64,000 nt of DNA from Candidatus Poribacteria bacterium (GTDB lineage Bacteria > Poribacteria > WGA-4E > WGA-3G). Below, one piece after another: positions 39,420-44,648 of this stretch. The stretch lies in contig JAPPBX010000038.1 in NCBI GenBank assembly GCA_026702755.1, forward strand, positions 1-64,000, written 5' to 3'. The position numbers were made by a program, and so were the translations under genes. Each line of letters starts with the position of its first letter. Within the stretch, counting starts at the first letter, position 1. A model generated the notes under the pieces. The model saw only the letters and a program-made list of their open reading frames with translations, did no database searches and was not told where the DNA came from.

Positions 39420-39737
39420 TTACTCAGCTGTTTTCGCGGTAAAACCTGCACCTTCAACAGCCTTTACGAGCGTGTCCGTTTCGACCTTGCCCTTCTCAAC
39501 CTTCACAACGGCTTTATTCTCAGCCATAGAAACACTGACAACCTCAGAGACACCCGTAACCTTTTTGAGTGCTTCCTGCACCTTACCGGTACACATACTT
39601 CACGTCATTCCAGTCACGGTCAGCGTCACTTCTTCAATAGTTGCTTCAGCGGTTTGCTGTTGGTTGTCTGCACACGCGGCCACGAATAAGAGTGCGGCGA
39701 GGCAGATAAATACAATTCCGGCGTTTAACTGACGCAT
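39420..39737 (-). CDS. HMA-domain lipoprotein, predicted selenoprotein (GMTUxxC)
   Basis: Reading through one in-frame TGA (39600-39602, codon 46) gives a 105-residue heavy-metal-associated (HMA) lipoprotein. Residues 1-22 are a signal peptide with lipobox FVAAC. The HMA motif normally reads GMTCxxC, and here it reads GMT-U-SMC with the TGA exactly at the first metal-ligand Cys. The HMA fold continues after it (KVQEALKKVTGVSEVVSVS, AVVKVEKGKV, LVKAVEGAGFTAK). A SECIS-like hairpin lies 18 nt after the TGA. The neighbouring paralogue shares the same arrangement. It probably binds a soft metal or acts in thiol/selenol redox chemistry at the envelope. A frameshift or pseudogene is unlikely given the intact downstream half. 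Confidence 0.85.
39569..39581 (-). promoter_or_regulatory. SECIS-like hairpin after the HMA UGA (gene 1)
   Basis: On the mRNA strand GUGC-AGGAA-GCAC forms a 4-bp stem with a 5-nt loop containing G at its second and third positions, 18 nt downstream of the UGA. Bacterial SECIS elements place such a G-containing apical loop about 16-37 nt after the UGA. The same bases occur at the same distance in gene 2. Confidence 0.65.
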
Positions 39738-39801
39738 AGGTCTATCCCTCTTATTTGTAGAGCGATTTCCTGTCGCTCCTCTTCAACTTTATCTATAAAC
39801 A

Positions 39802-39828
39802 GGAAAGGTGGGTAAAGCCCACCCTTCC
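39802..39828 (-). terminator. Terminator-like hairpin between the HMA genes
   Basis: On the minus strand GGAAGGGTGGG and CCCACCTTTCC form an 11-bp stem (one mismatch) around CTTTA, followed by a moderately U-rich TGTTTAT. It may end or attenuate the transcript from gene 2 before gene 1. Confidence 0.5.
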
Positions 39829-39845
39829 GGTTAAGCGGTTAAGCT

Positions 39846-40142
39846 TTATTCAGCGACTTTGGCGTCGAAACCTGTATCTGTAATGACCTTGGCGACTTTG
39901 TCAGCTGAAACTTTACTCTTCTCGATCTTTACAACGGCTGTATTGCTCTCATCAGAGACGCTTACCACTTCAGTCACACCGGGAGTGTTCTTGAGTGCTT
40001 CCTGCACTTTGCTGGTACACGCGCCTCACGTCATGCCCGTGACATCGAACGTTACTTCTTGGATCTTTTCACCGAAAAGTCCACAACCGACCATGAAGAC
40101 AAAGACAACGAGAAAGATCAGCGATAATCTTGCGATATGCAT
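39846..40142 (-). CDS. HMA-domain lipoprotein, predicted selenoprotein (GMTUxxC), paralogue 2
   Basis: Reading through TGA at 40026-40028 (codon 39) gives a 98-residue lipoprotein. It has a signal peptide with lipobox FMVGC, then an HMA domain where the metal motif is GMT-U-GAC, again with TGA at the first Cys. The HMA fold continues with SKVQEALKNTPGVTEVVSVS, VVKIEKSKV and KVAKVITDTGFDAK. The two proteins are clear paralogues, and both keep the UGA and the same downstream hairpin, which argues for selenocysteine rather than error. GGAGG precedes ATG 40142 and a promoter lies 31-59 nt upstream. A short spacer with a hairpin separates it from gene 1. Confidence 0.87.
39995..40007 (-). promoter_or_regulatory. 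SECIS-like hairpin after the HMA UGA (gene 2)
   Basis: The mRNA has GUGC-AGGAA-GCAC (extendable by an A-U pair) 18 nt after the UGA, identical in sequence and spacing to gene 1, although the surrounding codons differ more. Confidence 0.65.
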
Positions 40143-43997: not shown

Positions 43998-44648
43998 ATG
44001 CAATCTAAACTGATAAACAATCGCCTCATAAATTTTGGGGGACACGTGCAGTTTTCGTGTCCGGTTAATTCAGTATGCTTTTTAGTTCTATTGGCGGCTG
44101 TCGTTTTCTTATGCCTTGCTTGCGACAACGCAGAGCGTGCAACAAACATTATAACAGCACCCGAGGACGCAGCCGAGCAACTCCCGCCCGGTGAAGGGTT
44201 AGATATCGGGGCACTCGCCCCTGAATTCACGCTTCCAGATGGCGATGGGAAATCCCGTAGTCTGTCGGAATACCGCGGACAGAAGTTGGTTATTGTCTTC
44301 TATCGCACTGGCACGTGAGGCACCTGTCAAGCGCAACTCGGTGAGTTGCAAGACGGTTATGGAGACATTCAAGCTGAAGGTGCCGAACTGATTGCCATCA
44401 GTGCCGATCCGCTGGCTATTGTTAGTTCAGTACAAGAGAAGCTTCAAATCACCTATCTCTTACTCGCGGATGAAGACACGAAGACGATCGCTGACTATAA
44501 TGTCGTTGATCCAAGTGAAATCGAGGTCGCACGTCCAGCGACCTATATTATTGATCAGGATGGGCGTGTCGCGTGGAAATACCTTGACGCGAAGAGCGGT
44601 AAACGCATCGGACCTGATCCGATTGTCGCACAGTTAAATAAATTTTAA
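43998..44648 (+). CDS. Lipoprotein peroxiredoxin/redoxin, predicted selenoprotein (UxxC)
   Basis: Reading through TGA at 44316-44318 (codon 107) gives a 216-residue protein. It has a signal peptide (FLVLLAAVVFLCLAC) with lipobox, then a thioredoxin-fold redoxin: GALAPEFTLPDGDGKSRSLS, VIVFYRTGT-U-GTCQAQL, GAELIAISADP, VARPATYIIDQDGRVAWKY. The TGA occupies the peroxidatic or first Cys of the CxxC motif, giving UxxC. A textbook-like SECIS hairpin follows. Both halves share one frame and form one family-length protein, so a truncation is unlikely. It probably reduces peroxides or disulfides at the envelope. The first start at 43998 is followed by about 20 extra N-terminal residues. Confidence 0.88.
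44333..44349 (+). promoter_or_regulatory. SECIS-like hairpin after the peroxiredoxin UGA
   Basis: GCAACUC-GGU-GAGUUGC is a perfect 7-bp stem with a GGU loop, beginning 14 nt after the UGA so the loop lies 22-24 nt downstream. This matches the bacterial SECIS rule of a short G-containing apical loop at 16-37 nt. Confidence 0.75.

Follow-up and report, generated by a model that had tools for sequence, protein, structure and literature searches.

The SECIS element of Escherichia coli fdhF is a hairpin downstream of the UGA codon with an apical G/U that is read by SelB; it has a comparatively long stem with a bulged U. The bSECIS model for bacteria describes an apical loop of 3-9 nt on an upper stem of 4-16 bp, a G among the first two loop nucleotides and mostly G or U after it, a distance of 16-37 nt from the UGA to the apical loop, and a minimum free energy (MFE) of -7.5 kcal/mol or lower (PMC13188914). 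Selenoproteins of the heavy metal-associated (HMA) type are already known. MerP appears among them in the GOS survey (PMC2398784), and NCBIfam holds models for a UxxU metal-binding selenoprotein (NF041115) and for a MerT/CopZ fusion (NF045683). Prx-like/redoxin selenoproteins with a UxxC motif are also known (PMC13188914, PMC2398784). A search of the literature collection used here found no work tying selenoproteins and UGA to Poribacteria and no work joining selenocysteine (Sec) with heavy metal-associated selenoproteins.

The window, by which we mean the whole 64,000-nt stretch of Candidatus Poribacteria DNA that was analyzed, contains two HMA genes in tandem on the minus strand (Table 1). 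Each encodes a short leader that by eye resembles a signal peptide or lipoprotein leader, and then a single HMA domain scoring above the PF00403 gathering cut-off of 24.8 bits. In both genes an in-frame UGA takes the place of the first metal-site Cys (GMT-U-SM-C and GMT-U-GA-C, that is, GMT-U-xxC), and homologues of HMA gene 1 align straight through its single internal TGA. A sequence-only reading of the window had placed GUGC-AGGAA-GCAC exactly 18 nt after the UGA in both mRNAs, and the coordinates agree. The description of the hairpin is corrected in one respect: the stem has a fifth, basal pair, G-U in gene 1 and A-U in gene 2, and is therefore 5 bp long. The AGGAA loop of the window genes is a minority form. 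Most relatives close a triloop by a sixth pair, which is absent from both window HMA genes (A-A). An Rfam search of the window at gathering scores returned no match.

Table 1. Positions of the UGA-containing genes of the window, their in-frame UGA codons and their putative SECIS hairpins
Feature	Position	Strand	Description	Pfam score
HMA gene 1	39420..39737	-	105-aa lipoprotein-like secreted HMA domain protein, GMTUSMC	PF00403 42.4 bits
In-frame UGA (Sec codon), HMA gene 1	39600..39602	-		
SECIS hairpin, HMA gene 1	39568..39582	-	core GUGC/GCAC 39569-39581 plus outer G-U; loop AGGAA; GTGC 39581-39578, GCAC 39572-39569, spacer from UGA 18 nt	
HMA gene 2	39846..40142	-	98-aa lipoprotein-like secreted HMA domain protein, GMTUGAC	PF00403 44.1 bits
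In-frame UGA (Sec codon), HMA gene 2	40026..40028	-		
SECIS hairpin, HMA gene 2	39994..40008	-	core GUGC/GCAC 39995-40007 plus outer A-U; loop AGGAA; GTGC 40007-40004, GCAC 39998-39995, spacer from UGA 18 nt	
AhpC/TSA-type redoxin	43998..44648	+	216 aa, predicted Sec at the UGA, GTUGTC (UxxC)	PF00578 108.7 bits
In-frame UGA (Sec codon), redoxin	44316..44318	+		
Redoxin SECIS hairpin	44333..44349	+	GCAACUC-GGU-GAGUUGC; loop 21 nt after UGA	

The machinery for Sec insertion, which the bSECIS model expects in the same genome, is present as tRNA-Sec, SelB, and SelA. The tRNA-Sec gene scores 78.1 bits, above the family cut-off, and is called by ARAGORN as tRNA-SeC with the anticodon tca. SelB (351 bits, profile positions 1-579 of 581) lies just upstream of it (~0.1 kb), and SelA scores 598 bits. 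A homologue search of 84 genomes of the phylum gave matches in 76. Nearly all of the matches listed contain exactly one TGA, which sits at the Cys site and is flanked by conserved protein sequence on both sides. When both strands of the window were scanned for long frames in which a UGA precedes a hairpin of this type, only the two HMA genes and the redoxin gene were found. These observations bear on the possibility that the genes are decaying and the UGA is a true stop, or that UGA has been reassigned to sense, with the hairpin serving another role. The standard code does give truncated frames here, as that explanation would have it, but the Sec machinery, the single TGA at a Cys site within an otherwise conserved protein and the restriction of the UGA-plus-hairpin arrangement to three genes of the window make it very improbable.

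In the 5.8-Mb genome the pattern TGA-N18-GTGC-N5-GCAC occurs five times, compared with once for a reversed-pattern control. Three of the five matches are HMA genes with an in-frame UGA, namely the two window genes and a third gene (L011:1495-3126, minus strand). The third gene carries the same hairpin and encodes a protein that looks WD40-like by eye, has a CxxCH-like stretch close to the N terminus and ends in a C-terminal Sec-HMA domain. Its assignment as a mercuric reductase was ruled out on reading.

The stretch TGTACC...GCACTCAA (codons 3-12) had been noted as nearly identical in the two HMA genes while the rest diverges. This is the case: 26 of 30 nt agree, against 29 of 45 upstream and 87 of 138 downstream. 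At residues shared by the two proteins, identical codons are used at 7 of 9 positions within codons 3-12, 3 of 8 upstream and 13 of 24 downstream. As a sign of selection, two genes alone are too weak to be more than suggestive, and it is the comparison across the family that decides.

For this comparison, UGA domains were fetched from among the matches listed and from five longer genes, and HMA domains were extracted by a protein pattern that at first demanded V or I at codon 7. A relaxed pattern lacking this demand found no UGA domain with a different hairpin. Merging the two pattern sets and removing duplicates at 60 nt gave 122 UGA and 16 Cys domains, one non-HMA row having been removed from the Cys set; removing duplicates at 42 nt gave 113 distinct UGA segments. 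GUGC-N5-GCAC was found at exactly +18 in all 122 unique UGA-HMA domains examined (65 genomes, 9 genera), in 1 of the 16 unique Cys domains of the same phylum, that of L052, and in none of 109 Cys domains taken from outside the phylum, across the tree of life. The 109 were contig-scan matches to a query with Cys at the Sec position, a scan to which UGA relatives are invisible. Both the core and the loop G were invariant in the 113 segments.

The palindrome might be a mere by-product of coding the HMA peptide V-Q-x-A-L, without any RNA function. Every UGA domain does encode V..A-L, and Cys HMA proteins often have these residues as well. However, with the codon usage of the window, synonymous choice alone would produce the core in only ~3.5% of sequences, against the 122 of 122 seen. 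The Val and Ala codons of the UGA domains are always GTG and GCA (126 of 126 in the first extraction), whereas outside Cys domains coding the same residues at the same places often use others (GTG in 33 of 91, GCA in 15 of 63), and none of the 109 has the core. Synonymous change inside and outside the hairpin was also compared on a tree made without the hairpin codons, so that the counts allow for relatedness. No third-position change was found at any of the stem and loop codons 7, 8, and 10, whereas the Val codons -5, 14, 17, 20, and 21 had undergone 31, 19, 27, 33, and 23 changes, respectively. A coding by-product is thus hardly credible.

Searches of two other phyla gave no sign of UGA-HMA genes among the matches listed: none of the 6 listed from 57 genomes around G084 had an internal stop, and neither had any of the ~150 matches listed from 301 genomes around G087. 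Within the phylum, one homologue of HMA gene 1 (L034:1500-1760, genome G061) lacks the stretch with the UGA and the second Cys, has no stop inside and keeps the hairpin sequence; its Sec site appears to have been lost in frame.

The four core pairs do not vary at all, so covariation cannot probe them. Their lack of compensatory change is expected because the encoded amino acid (Val, Gln/Arg, Ala, or Leu) dictates one side of each pair, and a double change would alter the protein. Even the wobble alternatives are absent from UGA domains: neither GCG (U-G) nor, for Leu, TTR (G-U) occurs. The closing pair is A-U in 96 of the 113 segments, G-C in 6, G-U in 2 and unpaired in 9 (8 A-A, 1 G-A). Its left base falls on the middle nucleotide of a CAG (Gln) or CGG (Arg) codon and its right base is always a third position. 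The codon-9 wobble base pairs with base 2 of codon 8 in 104 of 105 testable segments, compared with 55.9 expected. A left G is confined to two genera of different families: in f3.g8 the pair is G-C in 6 of 6 domains, and in f1.g3 there are 1 G-C, 2 G-U, and 1 G-A among 37. At the stem foot, U faces A or G in 109 of the 113 segments, and the codon-6 wobble base is a purine in 52 of the 55 cases where the residue leaves a choice, compared with 26.3 expected. In a shuffle control, none of 500 shuffles reached the observed paired percentage, both-side cells or covariation score. The count of pairs with both-side change was reached by 200 of the 500 and is hence unsupported, because only one HMA pair can vary in that way.

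The sequence-only reading had proposed selection on RNA structure, a proposal that a lack of both compensatory change and structural constraint among homologues would undercut. Both are present, with the closing pair occurring as A-U and, in two lineages, as G-C. The proposal is borne out by the difference between UGA and Cys domains, the absence of third-position changes, the compensatory closing pair and the Sec machinery.

The isolated 15-nt HMA hairpin has a predicted energy of -5.1 kcal/mol, weaker than the cut-off quoted for the bSECIS model. The MFE of a 42-nt segment is -8.7 kcal/mol for gene 1, where a competing fold is the minimum, and -7.5 kcal/mol for gene 2; with 48 nt, the values are -11.1 and -10.6 kcal/mol, respectively, and the hairpin dominates in both. 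The core is part of the minimum-energy fold in 73 of the 113 segments when folded freely and in 97 of the 113 when the first 12 nt are held open. With these 12 nt held unpaired, the mean core pairing probability is 0.85 for UGA segments, 0.19 for same-phylum Cys domains, 0.02 for outside Cys domains and 0.03 for codon-shuffled sequences (a synonymous-codon null of 40 sequences with 20 shuffles each). By a generic hairpin score (p<0.05), 2 of the 16 Cys domains pass and 32 of the 113 UGA segments fail.

The redoxin gene, well above the PF00578 cut-off of 26 bits and at the cut-off of none of the NCBIfam models, has relatives that also carry 1 TGA. Its hairpin has the perfect 7-bp stem and GGU loop attributed to it. 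The claim that it is unrelated to the HMA hairpins in sequence while being similar in geometry holds, and the likeness is even closer than claimed: in most relatives both kinds of hairpin are capped by a G-first triloop 21-23 nt after the UGA. Of 82 UGA rows near redoxins, 15 were removed because they lacked the U..C..Q[L/F/M] motif, most of them being in the wrong frame, and a further 3 as duplicates, which left 64 distinct segments. Across these the 7-bp stem is 98.2% paired, and the triloops of the relatives are mostly GGN or GUN. Three pairs of the stem have changed on both sides, A-U to G-C (L109, L152, and L153), C-G to U-A (L150), and G-C to U-A (L169), a number matched by none of 500 shuffles.

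The redoxin hairpin helps to judge whether SelB reads mainly a linear sequence, GUGC-RG-..-GCAC, with pairing of the core being secondary. A sequence-specific contact would also give the invariance of core and loop G in 113 of 113 segments. It would not account for a closing pair that covaries among A-U, G-U, and G-C, for a purine opposite U at the outer position of nearly all segments, or for a redoxin hairpin with a different stem sequence, the same geometry and compensatory changes of its own. Linear reading is therefore unlikely, although less remote than the two explanations considered above.

More distant UGA redoxins occur phylum-wide (stretches L134-L173), many in longer frames, and nearly all of those read have a CAACUC-G[G/U]N-GAGUUG hairpin. 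By hand count, 42 of 58 genomes of the family have a UGA-HMA and a UGA-redoxin gene on one contig, at most ~8 kb apart; 14 have the two on different contigs, and 2 have no HMA position among the matches listed. This neighborhood may point to a common pathway in the chemistry of metals or thiols.

Computation thus reveals frames that stay open past a UGA at a conserved Cys position, a genome with Sec machinery, frozen hairpin-forming synonymous codons, relaxation of these codons in Cys domains, and compensatory pairs. On this evidence, each hairpin is almost certainly the bacterial SECIS element of its own gene, serving Sec insertion at the UGA. The element would consist of a 5-6-bp stem (R-GUGC-R / Y-GCAC-U) with a G-first triloop, and that of the redoxin gene would share this architecture but be built from a different stem sequence. 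As translation arrives at the UGA, SelB, loaded with Sec-tRNA(Sec) and attached to the hairpin that begins 18 nt further along, would deliver Sec in place of termination. The predicted product is an HMA domain with a GMT-U-xx-C metal-binding site, which probably works alongside the linked Sec redoxin on metals or thiols in the periplasm. If so, a hairpin as short as this can serve as a SECIS element, with its synonymous sites frozen throughout a phylum. The Cys domains provide natural controls and the compensatory pair provides evidence of pairing, and the HMA and redoxin hairpins are ready test constructs for what the SelB of this clade reads.

Four single frames contain four or five tandem HMA domains (L053:1249-2676, L047:847-1842, L052:565-1602, and L056:411-1565). 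UGA domains number 4 in L053 and 3 in each of L047, L052, and L056, with 1 Cys domain in every frame. Each UGA domain has its own hairpin and the last domain is the Cys domain; the core is lost from the terminal Cys domain in 3 frames and kept in L052. These frames are candidate bacterial proteins with 3-4 selenocysteines. The highest Sec number given in the passages of a 2026 review that were consulted is 3. It seems likely that the Sec-HMA domain, together with the hairpin inside its coding sequence, makes up a portable domain-plus-SECIS cassette, found as a stand-alone protein, at the end of a WD40-like protein or in tandem duplication. In the tandem form, each of the 3-4 UGA codons of one mRNA would rely on a hairpin of its own, at a spacing of ~219 nt, and serial Sec insertions would be needed, while the Cys end domains mostly lack the hairpin code. 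With these multi-UGA relatives, serial Sec insertion in bacteria would become directly testable.

Compared with the bSECIS model (PMC13188914), the HMA hairpins are likewise short stem-loops downstream of a Sec-UGA, and the closing pair N1...N2 of the model covaries here. The stem and loop (5 bp with a 5-nt loop in the window genes, 6 bp with a 3-nt loop in most relatives), the loop G (AGGAA in the window genes, the G column being invariant in all 113 segments) and the distance from UGA to loop (22 nt for HMA, or 23 nt to the triloop, and 21 nt for the redoxin) all lie within the model. The HMA hairpins differ from it in that their 5-6-bp stem is at the short end, the energy of the isolated hairpin is above the quoted cut-off, and the core sequence is frozen phylum-wide.

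The HMA hairpins share with the fdhF element an apical G/U hairpin of the kind read by SelB, whereas the fdhF stem is longer and has a bulged U; no resemblance in sequence is claimed.

At the protein level, the window redoxin resembles the Prx-like/redoxin UxxC selenoproteins in combining an AhpC/TSA or redoxin domain with UxxC. The window HMA proteins have an HMA-type metal-binding domain in common with NF041115, NF045683, and the MerP selenoprotein of the GOS survey. They are small stand-alone lipoprotein-like proteins, unlike these known HMA selenoproteins. HMA genes 1 and 2 score 53.9 and 48.3 bits with NF041115 (cut-off 95), and their motif is UxxC, not UxxU; they score 48.0 and 39.4 bits with NF045683 (cut-off 375) and 44.7 and 43 bits with the MerP model TIGR02052 (cut-off 92.55). 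In kind, the HMA hairpin is an ordinary bacterial SECIS; the Sec-HMA proteins whose genes carry it fall below the curated models of known HMA selenoproteins.
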